From a virus, in the IMG/VR virus record IMGVR_UViG_3300010160_000080, positions 1 through 44,557 of that record: DNA of 44,557 nt. The stretch is one strand, 5' to 3'. Position 1 is the stretch's first letter; each line of letters starts with the position of its first letter. Of this stretch, positions 8,487-42,885 are shown piece after piece. The translations under genes were made by a program, and so were the position numbers. The notes below the pieces were generated by a model that was given only the letters and a program-made list of their open reading frames with translations, was not told the DNA's origin and made no database searches.

Positions 8487-9911
8487 TTATTTCTTTAAAC
8501 TATTAAGTAACGACCTCAATTTTGACCCCTGCACATCACCTACAACTTTTTTCTGTAATGGTTCTAGATACTCCCCTGTAGTTTGGTCTATAATAGGTTC
8601 AGTAGATGTGACTGTAGATTGTGGCTTTAAACGATTCATAATGTCATTTGAACTAGGCCTAGGAGTATAACTTGTTTCAGCTTCTGGATTAGGGTCTGAA
8701 ATACGCATTGTCTCAACGTTATATTCCAGTTCAATTTTCTGACCAACACCAGTGGAACTACGACTTTTCATACATTGTAATTGATACTGCCCGCGTTCAC
8801 GCATACTGCGACTTGTAAAGATACCAAACACGTTATCTGCTGTGTTAATCTTACTGATACCACCACTGATGTGACTATGATCAAATTCAATTTCATCAAC
8901 CGCTGTACGATTCAACTGACTCGCAGTAACCATCAACATACCTAATTCTTTTGCTAAGTTACGCAATTCTTCTGAAACATACTTATCTTTAACAAACAAG
9001 TCAGAAGGAGACACTTTAGCTGAAACAGGCATCAACAAGTCAAGATAATCAATCATAACAAAATCAAGCTTTTGACCAGAAGAAATTTCAAACTCTTTCA
9101 AGAAAGCACGAACATGATTGATGTTACTCTGTGCAGGTAACGATTTAATTTGATAGTTACCTGCTTTCTTACCAACCATTTTAATCAATAGTTCAGCACC
9201 CGGCACATCTCTGCGAATATCTCTTGTACTTTTGTTAGTCAACATCGCATCAGTTCTTAAACCAGTTAATTCTTCACTCAGTTCTAATGTGATGTAAACT
9301 CCATTGAGTCCTAGTTGTAACCAGTTCAATGCAATGTTCATCATAACTAATGACTTACCTGAACCCGAACCACCTGCAAAAATATTCAATTCACCTCGAC
9401 TGAAACCACCATGTAATAATTTATCAAGTTGAGGCCATCCAGTGGATACTTGTCCACCACTACTAAAATATTTGTCCAATCGTGCTGATGGGCTATCAAA
9501 GTAATCAGTACCCATATCTCTAGTTAAACTGATTTGTACAGCATCTTTAACTAGTTTTTCAATTGATTCAAACTTACCACTCTCAAGCAACTCATATGCT
9601 TTAACGATAGCACGTTCTAATTCTTGCTTCTTAGTAAATGCTTCAAACTTATCTAAGAACCATTCTTTTCTGTTATCTTTAACTTCATCTAGTAACTCAA
9701 TCTCAACACCTGTAGTTGACTTAATTATTTCACTATCGGGTAATGTTCTATATTTGTCTGAGTGTTCTCTCAATAATTCTGCCACTGGTCTAAGTGACTT
9801 ATCAAAGTTCTCTGGGTTAAAGATGTTGATTACACGTGTAAACAATTCTGCATCTGACACCATTGTTCGTAACAATGTTAGTTGCATTTCTTTACTATAA
9901 TTTTCTGACAA
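8487..9911 (-). CDS. 41: Replicative DNA helicase, DnaB/gp41-like
   Basis: A 474-residue RecA-fold hexameric helicase that unwinds DNA at the fork and works with primase. Residues 1-130 form the helical N-terminal domain. The motor has Walker A GGSGSGKS at 180-187 and Walker B FVMIDYLDLL at about 280; the HISGG sensor follows. T4 gp41 has 475 residues, so the length fits. The start is TTG at 9911, supported by AGAGGAA at 9917-9923; the next ATG eight codons in has a poorer site. The start overlaps the primase gene by 17 bases, coupling helicase and primase synthesis. The C-terminal tail is Ser/Thr/Pro-rich, as expected for partner contacts. Confidence 0.95.
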   Translation of the reverse strand: MSENYSKEMQLTLLRTMVSDAELFTRVINIFNPENFDKSLRPVAELLREHSDKYRTLPDSEIIKSTTGVEIELLDEVKDNRKEWFLDKFEAFTKKQELERAIVKAYELLESGKFESIEKLVKDAVQISLTRDMGTDYFDSPSARLDKYFSSGGQVSTGWPQLDKLLHGGFSRGELNIFAGGSGSGKSLVMMNIALNWLQLGLNGVYITLELSEELTGLRTDAMLTNKSTRDIRRDVPGAELLIKMVGKKAGNYQIKSLPAQSNINHVRAFLKEFEISSGQKLDFVMIDYLDLLMPVSAKVSPSDLFVKDKYVSEELRNLAKELGMLMVTASQLNRTAVDEIEFDHSHISGGISKINTADNVFGIFTSRSMRERGQYQLQCMKSRSSTGVGQKIELEYNVETMRISDPNPEAETSYTPRPSSNDIMNRLKPQSTVTSTEPIIDQTTGEYLEPLQKKVVGDVQGSKLRSLLNSLKK

Positions 9912-10866
9912 TTTTATTCCTCTGTATTTCTATTTTTATCTTGTTCATTGTTGCTGATTCTAATATACTCAATAGTGTTGCTAGTCTACCATATTTAACA
10001 ACTGCATCGTTTACATCTTTTACATCGACATCCCAATAAGGAATGCTTACACTATATCCTAACTCTAATGCTCTTTCACAAGTAGCTAAGCCGGTCTTGT
10101 CGTGATCTGGAACAAAAATAATTTTTCTGTTTAGTTGTGCCAATAACTCTGCTTGGTCATCGTTGATTGTATTGTGTGTTAATGCACATGCACCTAAACT
10201 TAATGCATCAAATATTCCCTCGACTAAAATACAAACTGATTGGTCTGATTTCTGAAAGTCATAACCAAACACGTAGCCCGGCTGCTGTTCATTGATGTAT
10301 TTTGGAATCTTGTTGTCTAAGAATCTACTTGTATGTCCTACAATTTTATTCTTATATGTGTATGGTATAATGATACGATTCCCCATTCGACCTTGCTCAG
10401 TGGGTGTAATCATAAAGGGATATTCACTACTACTTATACCTCTAGTTTTCAAATATTCTACATATACTTTGTGTAATTCATTGTTTTGATCAAGTAAGTC
10501 AGCATCAGGAAGTTCATGGTCTTTAAACTTGATTTTCTTTTCTTTTTTCTTAGGTGCTAAATCTACAAAGTCTTTTTGTAAAACACTTTCCATGCTCCAC
10601 TTTTGAATCTGTGTCTCATCTACACCGCACCAGATTAATAATTGCTTTGTATTTTTTGTGATTGATGTACCCAATCTGAATCCACACTTGAAGCCACAAT
10701 TGAAACAATGCATTGACCAATTAGTAGTGCCATCAAACTTGATACCGCCTCGACTTCTGCGATCGGCTTTGTGCCCACGATGATGACAGCATACAGCATT
10801 GAAGCTATGCCAACCACTACCCGTGAGTTTTCTTTTGCCTGGAATTATAGACAGAATATCGAACAT
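9895..10866 (-). CDS. 61: DNA primase, TOPRIM type (gp61-like)
   Basis: A 323-residue primase that lays RNA primers for lagging-strand synthesis. The N-terminus has a zinc-ribbon-like set of ligands: CCHH at 26-29, then CFNCGFKCG with C54, C57 and C61. The TOPRIM core has VEGIFDALSLGA (catalytic Glu) and FVPDHDKTG (DxD) at about 215-260. T4 gp61 is 342 residues. A good sigma-70-like promoter lies just upstream, and the stop overlaps the helicase start, as in a primase-helicase module. The order primase then helicase on the transcript is seen directly. Confidence 0.93.
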   Translation of the reverse strand: MFDILSIIPGKRKLTGSGWHSFNAVCCHHRGHKADRRSRGGIKFDGTTNWSMHCFNCGFKCGFRLGTSITKNTKQLLIWCGVDETQIQKWSMESVLQKDFVDLAPKKKEKKIKFKDHELPDADLLDQNNELHKVYVEYLKTRGISSSEYPFMITPTEQGRMGNRIIIPYTYKNKIVGHTSRFLDNKIPKYINEQQPGYVFGYDFQKSDQSVCILVEGIFDALSLGACALTHNTINDDQAELLAQLNRKIIFVPDHDKTGLATCERALELGYSVSIPYWDVDVKDVNDAVVKYGRLATLLSILESATMNKIKIEIQRNKIVRKL

Positions 10867-11701: not shown

Positions 11702-11744
11702 ATATTTATCAAAATATATTAACCACTCACCCAATGATAAATAT
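11702..11744. promoter_or_regulatory. Back-to-back divergent late promoter boxes
   Basis: Minus-strand GATAAATAT at 11702-11710 and plus-strand GATAAATAT at 11736-11744 face away from each other across 25 bases. They serve the virion gene to the left and the small plus-strand gene to the right. Identical 9-mers in both directions make chance unlikely. Confidence 0.6.
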
Positions 11745-11763
11745 TTCGGTCAATATAATACTA

Positions 11764-12144
11764 ATGATTCAAAACGAATTTTTCAAAAAACTAAGCGAAA
11801 ATCATCCTTTCATCACTATATGTTCCTACGCTAATCAGGATTATGTAGGAATTGTTCAAAACAGGGATGATGTTGTCACCACTATCTATGATTATGGTGC
11901 AATAGTAGACCCCTTAATTAAGGAGAAATTCTTAGAATTAGGTGATATATGGTGGTGGGAATCTAACAGATTGATTCCTATTAATTTGTTTCTTAAGGAC
12001 GACTGGATTATTTTCAAGCCCTATATAAGAACATTTCACAACAAAACATTGACTATTGTTCATGGTCCTGCTTGTAGTATCAGTGAACTACATAAACGCA
12101 GAACAAAACGCCGCAGTATCACTCTTGTACGAAGGATGCAGTAA
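11764..12144 (+). CDS. Small conserved hypothetical, plus strand
   Basis: A 126-residue protein starting MIQNEFFKKLSENHPF. An in-frame ATG at 11734 lies inside the late-promoter box, so the ATG at 11764 is preferred. The protein has an aromatic core (GDIWWWESNRLIPINLF, KDDWIIFKPYI) and a very basic C-terminus (HKRRTKRRSITLVRR) that could bind nucleic acid. It is one of only two plus-strand genes here and converges with the DnaE-like gene, overlapping its 3' end by 26 bases; transcripts would be antisense there. Function is unknown. Confidence 0.65.
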   Translation: MIQNEFFKKLSENHPFITICSYANQDYVGIVQNRDDVVTTIYDYGAIVDPLIKEKFLELGDIWWWESNRLIPINLFLKDDWIIFKPYIRTFHNKTLTIVHGPACSISELHKRRTKRRSITLVRRMQ

Positions 12145-12700
12145 GTAAGTTCATGTGAACTGCAACTAACCATGCATAACCAATTGCATGTGCCTTCTTA
12201 AAGGCATATCCATCATCTCCCTTGTCCCACACAGTCTGACTCACTTCTTTCCAATTCTTCCCAATCAAATGTTTCTTTGCCGGTCTAATCAATGCTAAAA
12301 ACATTGCTAGTCTAGGGATACTATTGACAGGTTCAGGCATCTTCTGAATAGATTGATAGTGATTGCCCAGATGAATTAGTTTTTCAACAAATACTCTGTC
12401 ATTTAACTTAGACCAATTGGGATCTATCATCAACTCTATCAAATGATTTTCATCACGTACTTGATTATATACATGAACATTCAATAAATCTAGTTTAAAA
12501 TATCCTCTTTTGTCTGCTTCAACATAATCTATGCTTGCCATATCCCTTACAGGATCATAGGGGATATCAGTGACATACACACCAGTAGCATGATGACGTA
12601 TAGGATTAACATTACGCATTGCAGCCCTAGTGTGAGGTATCAACTTCAATAAATCATCCCTTGAGCCAAAGTCAATATCAATGTCTGAATCAATTTTCAT
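12119..12700 (-). CDS. Miniature DnaE-like (C-family DNA polymerase motif) protein
   Basis: A 193-residue protein that carries, in order, the landmark motifs of bacterial DNA polymerase III alpha. SDIDIDF (5-11) matches DnaE PDFDVDF with both catalytic Asp (D8, D10). RHHATGVYVT (35-44) matches the KHAGGVVIA segment. GYFKLDLLN (66-74) matches GLVKFDFLG with the third Asp (D71). ALIRP (136-140) matches ALFRPGP, and YAFKKAHAIGYAW (165-177) matches FNKSHSAAYA. DnaE needs about 550 residues for the same span, and there is no PHP, fingers-insert or OB region here. It may be a minimal polymerase, a nucleotide-binding relic or a regulator. It is coupled by ATGA to the exonuclease gene upstream, echoing the alpha-epsilon pair. 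Confidence 0.7.
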   Translation of the reverse strand: MKIDSDIDIDFGSRDDLLKLIPHTRAAMRNVNPIRHHATGVYVTDIPYDPVRDMASIDYVEADKRGYFKLDLLNVHVYNQVRDENHLIELMIDPNWSKLNDRVFVEKLIHLGNHYQSIQKMPEPVNSIPRLAMFLALIRPAKKHLIGKNWKEVSQTVWDKGDDGYAFKKAHAIGYAWLVAVHMNLLTASFVQE

Positions 12701-13245
12701 CGTGATAGTACCAGTCCGGCTTTAATCAATTTTACATAACCTTGTTGAACGACCATTGCCTGTCGTTCTGCATCTTCTACCGCTTTGTGTGTAGTGACAT
12801 GTCCACCGTCTTTTAAATTCACATTAGTAATATCATATAGTGTTCGTGTATCTCTGATATCCCAAAAGTTCCAGGGTGTGTTCTTACCAAGTTGTTTCCA
12901 AGCATGATCCATGACTACTACATCAAAGCTTGCTCCGTTACTCCATGCACACTTGCTACGATTCCAACAGAACTTATATAGTTGATTCATTGCTTGTTCA
13001 AATGATACACGGTCTCTGTCGCCCATAGCTTCTTCAATTGCTTCTAGACTTTGCTTACCCCACCATTCCATTGTAGCATCGTTGATACTACGATTGTATT
13101 TTTCTGTTTGATCCTCAATCGTAGGTCGAATCTCAATCTTATCAATAATGCCATGACCACGTGGGTCAAATAATACTGCACCAATAGTTAGAATCACACA
13201 GTCTGGTGTTGTGTCTAGTGATTCAATGTCAATCATTACATCCAT
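12697..13245 (-). CDS. DEDD-family 3'-5' exonuclease (DexA/RNase T-like)
   Basis: A 182-residue RNase H-fold exonuclease. Motif I is MIDIESLDT (D6, E8), motif II is in WSNGASFDVVVMD at about 102-114, and motif III is HKAVEDAERQA at about 154-164 with the DEDDh His and final Asp. This pattern is that of phage DexA and Rv2179c-like enzymes that remove nucleotides from 3' ends. It is shorter than T4 DexA (about 227 residues). It starts one base after the stop of the upstream small gene and its stop overlaps the DnaE-like gene, so it could serve as a proofreading partner. That pairing is inference. Confidence 0.88.
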   Translation of the reverse strand: MDVMIDIESLDTTPDCVILTIGAVLFDPRGHGIIDKIEIRPTIEDQTEKYNRSINDATMEWWGKQSLEAIEEAMGDRDRVSFEQAMNQLYKFCWNRSKCAWSNGASFDVVVMDHAWKQLGKNTPWNFWDIRDTRTLYDITNVNLKDGGHVTTHKAVEDAERQAMVVQQGYVKLIKAGLVLSR

Positions 13246-13246
13246 G

Positions 13247-13597
13247 TTATGCCTTTAATATTTTCCATACATATTTTTTTTCTAGTATGTCTTGAAATTT
13301 TCTTGCTTCACTTTCTTCGTGAAACACCGCTCCTCTAATCTCATACATCTGTTCTAAGTAATCACCGTATTCATGTCTAGTATCTTGATACCACTCTATA
13401 GCATCAATCCATAATGTATCATACTCACCACTGTTAAGCATTATTGCTAATCCTGCTTGGTTACATTTTACTTCACCAAACAATATATCTAACAATTTTA
13501 TATTAGATACACTATCTCTAATGTTTTTAAATGTAGGCCACGTTACTACCCAATTGTTGTTTGGTAAATCGTTTATGATGAAAGGTGAGTTGTTCAT
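13247..13597 (-). CDS. Small array protein 8 of 8
   Basis: A 116-residue protein, the last and longest of a run of eight small coupled genes. It has DTLWIDAIEWYQDTRHEYGD, and then AVFHEESEARKFQDILEKKY near the C-terminus. That ending recalls the strand, acidic-turn and helix end of its upstream relatives but extends past it and lacks the LRW tail. The ATG at 13597 overlaps the upstream stop (ATGA), and its own stop lies one base before the exonuclease ATG. No known domain is recognised. Relationship to the array is weaker than for members 1, 2 and 4. Confidence 0.6.
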   Translation of the reverse strand: MNNSPFIINDLPNNNWVVTWPTFKNIRDSVSNIKLLDILFGEVKCNQAGLAIMLNSGEYDTLWIDAIEWYQDTRHEYGDYLEQMYEIRGAVFHEESEARKFQDILEKKYVWKILKA

Positions 13598-13866
13598 TGA
13601 AATTTCAGTAGAAACACAATGTATTTCTTTTCGTCCATGATTTTATATCCATCTGTTATATTACCATTGACTATCTGCATCTTAATGCCATACTTTTCTT
13701 CTATATAATCTTCAAAATCAAACGCATCAAATTGACCATTCTTGGCATCCTGCATATACTCAACACGAACTTTTTTCAATGCGGCCCAATAGTCCCATCT
13801 TTTCTTGCGAAAATTTATATTAGGATCATCGTCATCGTAATCTTGTAGATGCGGTATAGTAGTCAT
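13594..13866 (-). CDS. Small array protein 7 of 8
   Basis: A 90-residue protein with start MTTIPHLQDYDDDD; a TTG seven codons upstream is rejected because ATG 13866 makes the ATGA junction used throughout the array. It is Asp-rich at the start, then helical (FDAFDFEDYIEEKYGIKM), and ends YKIMDEKKYIVFLLKFQ. The end fits the array pattern of a strand, acidic or Lys turn and an aromatic-Leu helix. No enzyme motif is present. Function unknown. Confidence 0.62.
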   Translation of the reverse strand: MTTIPHLQDYDDDDPNINFRKKRWDYWAALKKVRVEYMQDAKNGQFDAFDFEDYIEEKYGIKMQIVNGNITDGYKIMDEKKYIVFLLKFQ

Positions 13867-14075
13867 TTGTATAATAGCTCGAACCAAGTAGCTAGTTCAT
13901 CTTTGTAAAAAGTAAAGATTGTTTGTTTAGGAACTTCTCCTATCATATCATCCCATTTAGTTTTATAATACGCAAAGTCATAATCAGTTCCCTGAACATA
14001 TCCCTTACTTCGTAATTCTTTAACTATATCCATGATATCATTTACTGACTTGTCTTTAACTGTAATTCTAATCAT
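13863..14075 (-). CDS. Small array protein 6 of 8
   Basis: A 70-residue protein: MIRITVKDKSVNDIMDIV, a helix with KELRSKGY, and an ending IFTFYKDELATWFELLYK. The F-x-F, acidic, WF-x-L ending is that of the array family. The small alpha/beta layout could be a ferredoxin-like fold. ATG 14075 overlaps the upstream TGA and its own TGA overlaps the next ATG, so translation is chained. Function is not recognised. Confidence 0.63.
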   Translation of the reverse strand: MIRITVKDKSVNDIMDIVKELRSKGYVQGTDYDFAYYKTKWDDMIGEVPKQTIFTFYKDELATWFELLYK

Positions 14076-14293
14076 GAGGCAAACATTAATGTAAAGAGAG
14101 TGGCGTAACGTTCATCTTCTAATGTAAGATACCATGTTTTATTTACCATACCCGAATCCCATTCTGTTTTTGCTAACCAGCCTTGTCCACCTATACTAGC
14201 ATGTGTATAGTGCATTCGTGGCCCTACATTCTTAGCAAGCCATTGTTCTTGTTCACTAGAAAGATGGTTACGAGGTAATGTTATCTTTATCAC
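14072..14293 (-). CDS. Small array protein 5 of 8 (GTG start)
   Basis: A 73-residue protein beginning MIKITLPRNHLSSEQEQWL. The start is GTG at 14293, forming a GTGA overlap with the upstream stop and preceded by GAGGTGGAA; a longer GTG frame would overlap more and break the pattern. It ends TWYLTLEDERYATLFTLMF, a variant of the array ending with Phe and Met in place of LRW. The first strand IKITLP resembles MIRITVK of the next gene. Function unknown. Confidence 0.62.
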   Translation of the reverse strand: MIKITLPRNHLSSEQEQWLAKNVGPRMHYTHASIGGQGWLAKTEWDSGMVNKTWYLTLEDERYATLFTLMFAS

Positions 14294-14538
14294 TTCCACC
14301 TCAAGATGAACCACTCAGCGTCTTGGGCTTTTTCAAAAGCAAATTTAACACCATAATTCCTATACTCGCCCGTACAATTATCATTACACCAGTTTTCAAT
14401 ATCAACAGCGTGATAACGACTATCAAATGGTGCTAATTCTACCCTTATGTATTTTAACACATCAATTATTATATCATAATCCATTTCTCTAGCCATATCA
14501 CTTGATAGTTTATCTAGCATCTCTTGTTCAATATTCAT
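14290..14538 (-). CDS. Small array protein 4 of 8, LRW type
   Basis: An 82-residue protein. A helical N-terminal half (MLDKLSSDMAREMDYDIIID) is followed by DIENWCNDNCTGEY and the ending VKFAFEKAQDAEWFILRWK. This ending, F-x-F, D-A-x-W-F-x-L-R-W, is the clearest form of the array motif. The ATG shares one base with the upstream TAA (TAATG). The pattern DxENWC also appears in member 2. Two cysteines in the middle are not conserved in all members. No known family recognised. Confidence 0.66.
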   Translation of the reverse strand: MNIEQEMLDKLSSDMAREMDYDIIIDVLKYIRVELAPFDSRYHAVDIENWCNDNCTGEYRNYGVKFAFEKAQDAEWFILRWK

Positions 14539-14774
14539 TAAAAACTCAATTTACATAGTATTACATCACGCTCATACCTAAATTTAAGTTGTATAAGCCC
14601 TCTAGTGATTCGCCATCTAGCATGGCGCTCACAGTTATCTATTCTATTATACAGCCATTCTAATACTTCTTCATATGATAAGGGAAAATCCATTCGAACA
14701 TGTATTTCATATTCATGCCAACCCGGATCAGTTTCTTCCCAATCACGATGTTGGTCAAAGTTTTGAACTCTCAT
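14538..14774 (-). CDS. Small array protein 3 of 8
   Basis: A 78-residue protein starting MRVQNFDQHRDWEE at ATG 14774, which makes the ATGA overlap; frames starting farther upstream are rejected because they lie inside member 2. It has LSYEEVLEWLYNRI, parallel to DMENWCIK of member 2, and ends IQLKFRYERDVILCKLSF. The helix-Trp then strand-helix layout fits the array, although the LRW tail is replaced by KLSF. Function unknown. Confidence 0.62.
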   Translation of the reverse strand: MRVQNFDQHRDWEETDPGWHEYEIHVRMDFPLSYEEVLEWLYNRIDNCERHARWRITRGLIQLKFRYERDVILCKLSF

Positions 14775-15016
14775 GTCCATCTGATTATGAACCATTCTAA
14801 ATCTTTTTTCTCTTTGAACCAAAACTTACTGTTATTCATGTACCATCTACCATGTGGTTCCCAAACACCATTTGCAGGTGTACAACCAAATGTCTTGATA
14901 CACCAATTTTCCATATCGTGCCAATCTTGATGATACAAATAAGGCTCATAGGCTTTTATCTCAGGATCAACTGTGTAATGTTTTTCACCAAACACATTAC
15001 TTTCACTTAACTTCAT
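14771..15016 (-). CDS. Small array protein 2 of 8, LRW type
   Basis: An 81-residue protein with start MKLSESNVFGEKHY at ATG 15016, preceded by GAGGTGGG and overlapping the upstream TGA by 4 bases. It contains WHDMENWCIKTFG and ends SKFWFKEKKDLEWFIIRWT, a full copy of the array motif. Many aromatic residues (W, Y, F) suggest a compact beta-alpha domain. No signal peptide or membrane segment. Function unknown. Confidence 0.66.
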   Translation of the reverse strand: MKLSESNVFGEKHYTVDPEIKAYEPYLYHQDWHDMENWCIKTFGCTPANGVWEPHGRWYMNNSKFWFKEKKDLEWFIIRWT

Positions 15017-15234
15017 GCCCACCTCAACACAAACCAAATGTAATCTTGTTCTTTTTTGAAGCGCACGGTCATTTCAGTTGCACCGTGATGTATGTAATAT
15101 TGTTGACCGGGTAGGCCTACATGTTCCATTAACCAAACACAGGCTTCACTCCAATTAATTTTATAAGGGACAACTGCTACATACTTTTCTTTAGTATCCG
15201 CCGGCACCCAATAACTCTTTGACTTGTTTAACAT
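15013..15234 (-). CDS. Small array protein 1 of 8, LRW type
   Basis: A 73-residue protein that starts within the end of the zinc-finger gene (44-base overlap; GGAAA lies just before ATG 15234). A GTG nine codons in is an alternative start that would shorten the overlap. It has NWSEACVWLMEHVG, a helix with Trp like its relatives, and ends MTVRFKKEQDYIWFVLRWA, a full array motif. It is the first gene of the run. No known domain. Confidence 0.63.
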   Translation of the reverse strand: MLNKSKSYWVPADTKEKYVAVVPYKINWSEACVWLMEHVGLPGQQYYIHHGATEMTVRFKKEQDYIWFVLRWA

Positions 15235-42220: not shown

Positions 42221-42469
42221 TTAAGACCATCTTAGTTCAAAAAGAGTTGCTTCACTTGGATCTTCAAAATATATATTACCCAAAGAAGCAATAAATGCAA
42301 ACATATCACTAGTGTTAGTTGTTACAGAAAATCTGCCACGTAATTTGTTTAATACCCATTGCTTTGAATCCTCTGTTAATAATGTTGTTGCTATTACAAA
42401 GTGAGGCGGGGGATATTCTATTTCACGGTTACTAAACCATACAATAGGATCAATTTCGTAATCTATCAT
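42221..42469 (-). CDS. LRW-type small protein, distant member of the array family
   Basis: An 82-residue protein with start MIDYEIDPIVWFSNRE at ATG 42469, which overlaps the upstream TGA (ATGA); a longer ATG frame exists. It contains TEDSKQWVLNKLRGRF and ends GNIYFEDPSEATLFELRWS. The IYF, acidic turn, A-x-x-F-x-LRW end is the same as in array members 1, 2 and 4 at 14-15 kb, though 27 kb away. This supports a phage-wide paralog family. Function unknown. Confidence 0.65.
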   Translation of the reverse strand: MIDYEIDPIVWFSNREIEYPPPHFVIATTLLTEDSKQWVLNKLRGRFSVTTNTSDMFAFIASLGNIYFEDPSEATLFELRWS

Positions 42470-42885
42470 TTGGTTAATGCATCTAACATCTTGTACTTTT
42501 CCCATGCTTCAACTACACTAGGATTTGTACTTTGATTAGTGGGAACAACTTGCATCCATAATCCATGACCATAATTAGCTGGGTGACGATACGAACTACC
42601 GTATCGATCCCCTACAAAGGCGCGAGGTTGATGAATCCTACCACTATCCCATAAACGTGTTGCAAGTTCAATAACTTTCTCTACTGCATGGTCACCAAGT
42701 TCATATAGTTCGGGATTACTAGCATAGGGATTACCTTGACTATGATAAGACCCCACTACATCAATAAAATGTTCAAACTTAGGACAGTTAGTGCGTGTTA
42801 CAATGAACATAACCTCATCCTCGGACACTTCACCATTCATTAGGCTTGTCAAACATCCACCAAGACTTGTTCCAATATACATCAT
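42466..42885 (-). CDS. Conserved hypothetical phage protein (MYIGTSLGGC type)
   Basis: A 139-residue protein. MMYIGTSLGGCLTSLMNGEV, SEDEVMFIVTRTNCP and FIDVVGSYHSQGNPYA are patterns seen in many T4-like aquatic phages; no function is known to me. The G-T-S-L-G-G-C start could be a turn that places a reactive Cys. The second half is variable (VPTNQSTNPSVVEAW). ATGA overlaps link it to genes on both sides. Confidence 0.7.
   Translation of the reverse strand: MMYIGTSLGGCLTSLMNGEVSEDEVMFIVTRTNCPKFEHFIDVVGSYHSQGNPYASNPELYELGDHAVEKVIELATRLWDSGRIHQPRAFVGDRYGSSYRHPANYGHGLWMQVVPTNQSTNPSVVEAWEKYKMLDALTK

Follow-up and report, generated by a model that had tools for sequence, protein, structure and literature searches.

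A candidate C-terminal subunit of a two-gene, minimal DNA polymerase III alpha in an uncultured phage

The 193-aa protein encoded on the minus strand at 12119-12700 of a 44,557-nucleotide stretch of viral DNA (IMG/VR record IMGVR_UViG_3300010160_000080; the whole stretch is referred to here as the window) is probably the C-terminal subunit of a minimal DNA polymerase III alpha that is specific to phages and encoded by two separate genes. In the enzyme that we propose, binding of the dNTP triphosphate would fall to the GxGRGS loop on the N subunit. The C subunit would bring the Asp triad, which would coordinate two Mg2+ ions, together with the K-F-D motif and, on the fingers side, the RP and FKK-H motifs. 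Joined noncovalently, the subunits would form a single Pol-beta-like palm. Such an enzyme keeps little of the thumb and has no PHP domain and none of the beta-binding, OB, or C-terminal domains found in alpha. If the halves do form an active enzyme, it would be remarkably small for the C family, with ~370 residues, little of the thumb, and neither PHP nor clamp-binding parts, and it would reveal which elements the catalytic core of Pol III truly requires. We know of no biochemical precedent for a C-family polymerase without a thumb.

A minimal Pol III alpha encoded in two pieces by distant genes, beside a family B polymerase, was described independently for group 2.2 jumbo phages by Iyer et al. 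(2021, PMC7824862), who distinguish an N-terminal protein that binds NTP from a C-terminal protein that binds Mg2+ and template. The N piece had been noticed earlier, as a truncated alpha, in genome papers (PMC5259590, PMC6102473). The window protein belongs to this system: The C half stands alone and carries Mg2+-binding Asp motifs, relatives of the window phage have a distant partner gene and a family B polymerase, and the two proteins have no other alpha domains. Unlike the system in that description, the uncultured clade to which the window belongs has a DexA-like exonuclease gene that overlaps the C-half gene. The available portions of PMC7824862, PMC5259590, and PMC6102473 make no mention of this clade-specific overlap, of a residue-exact seam with a collinear profile test, or of the seam in Tenacibaculum phage Larrie (see below). 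In the open literature we found no report of DNA synthesis by the split enzyme.

The C-terminal half: motifs, homology, and selection

The sequence-only reading of this DNA had pointed to a 193-aa ORF with DnaE-like motifs in DnaE order, and both the ORF and the order of its motifs are confirmed. The motifs comprise the catalytic Asp residues D6, D8, and D71, HxxG (H37-G40), K69, R139-P140, and FKK.H (F167-H171). In the alignment with Escherichia coli DnaE, D6, D8, D10, and D71 correspond to D401, D403, D405, and D555, and the remaining register is H37 = H511, G40 = G514, K69 = K553, R139 = R639, K168 = N757, H171 = H760, and Y175 = Y764. Thus, the earlier reading was right that equivalents of the catalytic Asp residues are kept, but its numbering of them (D8, D10, and D71) was not: Because of this register, the triad should read D6, D8, and D71, with D10 equivalent to D405. 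All four of these Asp residues are invariant in an alignment of 23 relatives, as are H37, G40, K69, R139, P140, F167, K168, and H171, at identities down to 38%.

The claim that the catalytic Asp equivalents are kept in about a third of the normal span needs revision, given that D401-Y764, which is 364 residues in E. coli, corresponds to 170 residues in the C half, about half of the length. Most of the shrinkage lies in the thumb, between the PDFDVDF and HAGG motifs (~26 residues vs. ~105 in DnaE), and in the part of the fingers that separates RPGP from FNKSH. The two fingers motifs are themselves represented, by the invariant R139-P140 and F167-K168-H171; it is the stretch between them that is shortened. 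Overall, the system resembles E. coli DnaE and Taq Pol III alpha in its ordered catalytic motifs, its Asp triad, and its GxGRGS loop (on the partner), and differs from them in that it is encoded by two genes, keeps little of the thumb and only part of the fingers, and has no PHP, beta-binding, OB, or C-terminal domain. There is no room for a PHP domain in either half (169-193 aa in most members).

Homology to DnaE is detectable at the level of profiles. A profile of the 23 C-half relatives, compared with a bacterial DnaE profile of 24 sequences built from genome contigs, scored 40.6. The highest score of 100 column-shuffled controls was 25.5 and that of the reversed profile was 16.5; because the score exceeds both kinds of control, we consider the homology to be real, and the C-family assignment proposed from the motifs is supported. 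The profile alignment covers DnaE H511-R639 and matches HHATG to KHAGG, FKLD to KFDF, and LALIRP to LVALFRP. In single-sequence HMMER searches, the window protein has a whole-length match to phrog_11778 (3.6e-56), which is labelled DNA polymerase (this name, like that of PHROG 11127 for the N half, is an automated family label only), and zero matches in Pfam, NCBIfam, and the PDB. A match of the C-half profile to poxvirus NPH-I in the PDB (E = 0.23) was judged to be due to chance. The AlphaFold2 model of the C half is well resolved in its helical half, and pLDDT is <50 at residues 1-11, 22-49, 54-60, and 65-72 (the palm half). A Foldseek search of this model, with its low-confidence palm, against the PDB and BFVD returned nothing significant (Pol III alpha at rank 19, TM 0.33). 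The palm might model this poorly when separated from its partner, and we do not count the result as evidence.

The gene sits in a replication cluster. Downstream from it, also on the minus strand, are genes for a DNA primase (9895-10866) and a DnaB-like replicative helicase (8487-9911), and the C gene is near the primase and DnaB helicase in relatives as well. The 3' end of a conserved, convergent ORF on the plus strand (11734-12144; phrog_11637, function unknown) runs into that of the polymerase half, and an ORF occupies the same place and orientation in the distant jumbo phages Paride, Phosso, GAP32, and Atu_ph07. The neighborhood is conserved in phages of hosts that range from Agrobacterium to Pseudomonas.

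The C-half ORF is real and under strong purifying selection. Relative to an 88%-identical C half (L002), dN is 0.084 and dS is 1.04 (dN/dS ~0.08). This bears on the earlier suggestion of a relic, in which the gene would be a decaying remnant of a full DnaE that has lost its biochemical role. The small size and lost domains would fit decay, as would a sequence so divergent that single-sequence searches miss DnaE. However, the dN/dS value and the invariance of the catalytic residues across phages that are only ~38% identical argue that the C half is not a relic, and the neighborhood conservation also speaks against one; we consider this reading highly improbable. In a separate comparison, two C halves (L020 and L031) are identical over codons 1-160 and strongly different in the last 27 codons (dS 0.85); the cause may be recombination in the 3' region or a contig whose end is chimeric (the L031 sequence ends shortly after).

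The N-terminal partner and the split seam

The GxGRGS triphosphate loop, which precedes PDFDVDF in DnaE, is missing from the C half, and this signature is on no window ORF in the replication region that was read. We located the corresponding part of the palm by searching relatives with PF07733. It occurs alone and far from the C half in Paride (59089), Phosso (97516), GAP32 (247491), Atu_ph07 (240841), and a 174-kb metagenomic contig from a relative of the window phage (G001, 166952). A further PF07733 match in GAP32 (at 56579, E = 0.008) falls below the family cut-off, and we attribute it to chance. The idea of a self-contained minimal polymerase must accordingly be given up, since the window protein lacks the GxGRGS portion of the palm, which is encoded separately, by a gene that accompanies the C-half gene in these phages. 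Judged by its sequence, the window gene is the predicted C-terminal half of a two-gene DnaE and not a complete minimal polymerase.

The seam between the halves can be placed at the level of residues. The N-half ORFs are 169-188 aa long and terminate in ...EFLK/N, the equivalent of FLN in DnaE, and the window protein family starts a few residues ahead of the next motif, PDFDVDF. Within the N half, G-x-G-R-G-S is invariant in the partner alignment, and only residues from about 103 onward align with DnaE. The N-piece profile scores 55.2 against the DnaE profile (shuffled maximum 28.0) and matches Taq Pol III alpha residues 381-455, up to FLN. When the N and C profiles are joined, the alignment to DnaE is collinear over 314 columns, with a score of 69.5 and the junction between FLN and PERVSMPDFDVDF. 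The N half also matches PHROG 11127 (labelled DNA polymerase). Its AlphaFold2 model has a pLDDT of 81, and the 11 best PDB matches of that model are all Pol III alpha, with probabilities of up to 1.00 and none below E = 0.001. If the halves form an active enzyme, Pol III alpha could be reconstituted in trans from pieces divided at this natural seam.

The two halves co-occur. Searches with tblastn detected the C half in 90 phage records; for the N half, the count was 88. The C/N tallies by host genus are nearly identical, at 34/34 for Escherichia, 11/11 for Pseudomonas, 8/8 each for Erwinia and Salmonella, 3/3 for Xanthomonas, and 11/10 for Klebsiella. One incomplete contig (G007, 129 kb) has an N half without a detectable C half. 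A distant N half is present in the same genome in the relatives G001 and W01-W04 and in named records. No fused or adjacent N-C gene pair is present in the loci fetched, and no third DnaE piece was found in the relatives. In G001, the C half (122948) lies ~43.4 kb upstream of the N half (166952). Because this spacing, with a minus-strand C half at 12.1 kb, would put the N half off the left end of the window, the partner is expected to lie beyond the 44.6-kb fragment. In three distant phages, the N gene is near a gp44-type clamp loader.

The DnaE of Tenacibaculum phage Larrie (ON950054) is likewise encoded by two genes, and the interruption falls where it does here, at the seam that separates FLN from P-D-x-D-x-D-F. 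Unlike those of the window system, the Larrie genes lie side by side, and they encode a far longer polymerase (515 + 676 aa). In this locus (L177, 62602-66182), the first ORF has an extra tail of ~55 aa and the second has a short leader, which are possibly the remains of a split intein or insertion.

The overlapping exonuclease

Upstream of the C half is a gene for a DEDD-type 3'-5' exonuclease of 182 aa (P0002, Rv2179c-like; 12697-13245, minus strand; Pfam 1.9e-34). The ORF and its 4-base overlap with the polymerase half, both reported previously, are borne out, and the shared bases are ATGA. The protein is distantly similar to a solved exodeoxyribonuclease of 227 aa (8kel, 2e-4), which we take from its length and name to be T4 DexA. 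In the window clade, such a DexA-like exonuclease is probably cotranslated with the C half, and it could proofread or trim.

The sequence-only reading had compared this arrangement to the alpha-epsilon pairing of Pol III. The linkage does hold within the window's clade: Wherever a locus includes >1 kb of upstream sequence, the exonuclease gene precedes the C half. The ATGA overlap is present in 15 of 24 distinct arrangements, and the other nine have a spacer of 25-921 bases, in some cases holding cargo genes. The exonuclease was not found at E ≤ 0.001 in Paride, Phosso, GAP32, or Atu_ph07, all of which are complete and have both halves; it is conserved beside the C half only in the window's own clade. 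In another contig (G005, 97500-104000; L180), the gene directly ahead of a homologue with 39% identity is that of the family B polymerase rather than a DnaE half, from which it appears that exonucleases of this type travel with polymerase genes. In E. coli, epsilon docks on the PHP domain of alpha, a domain that the split enzyme lacks. Gene adjacency suggests a possible alpha-epsilon-like pair of the exonuclease and the putative polymerase half, and the analogy is supported only in part.

These observations also bear on a refinement of the two-subunit enzyme, compatible with it, in which the window clade would have a three-protein minimal replicase: The two half-palms would assemble one active site in trans, and the cotranslated, ATGA-overlapping exonuclease would act as the proofreader, beside the family B polymerase. 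The constant upstream position of the exonuclease, the frequent overlap, and the G005 homologue point in this direction. On the other side are its absence from four complete jumbo phages that have both halves, the spacers in nine arrangements, some of them with cargo genes, the want of a PHP domain for docking, and the exo motif of the family B polymerase itself. On balance, we think the refinement possible but rather doubtful.

In several loci (L009, L014, L019, L024, and L039), different cargo genes occupy one spot between the exonuclease and the C half. They encode an HNH-like protein, a nucleotidyltransferase-like protein, and others, and the interval is a possible cargo hotspot.

Family B polymerase and the role of the split enzyme

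Close relatives that carry the N half also have a family B polymerase of 905 aa, whose motifs look intact (DxxSLYP, KxxNSxYG, YGDTDS, and exo DxE), and a Pfam match to family B polymerase was found in all four of the complete named phages. It is not in the 44.6-kb window fragment itself. Given its presence in the relatives, the split DnaE would be a second polymerase, and replication may not need it.

This is one reason to consider that the two halves form a non-polymerase complex, with a DNA-binding or nucleotidyltransferase function, in which the Asp triad and GRGS loop act on another substrate (e.g., to regulate the family B replicase, or to modify ends as a nucleotidyltransferase). The missing thumb and part of the fingers would be consistent with such a complex. 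However, the fingers-side residues R139, K168, and H171 (R639, N757, and H760 in E. coli) are invariant alongside the metal ligands, and we regard a non-polymerase function as unlikely. The two-subunit polymerase that we favor could serve as an accessory enzyme alongside the family B replicase of a T4-type replisome, for short synthesis, gap filling, lagging-strand work, or repair. Primer extension would be expected over short stretches, because the thumb, clamp-binding, and OB parts are absent. Were it active, the retention of a second, bacterial-type polymerase in a phage that already has a family B replicase would call for an explanation.

In Paride (87500-94000; L182), the family B polymerase is apparently split into ORFs of 815 and 379 aa, with a 562-aa ORF between them that is perhaps a homing element. 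Elsewhere in the window, on the minus strand at 13594-15234 and 42221-42505, are small ORFs of 70-97 aa, several with a WF.LRW-like tail; two that were tested have no match in PHROG, and these ORFs look like tandem paralogues.
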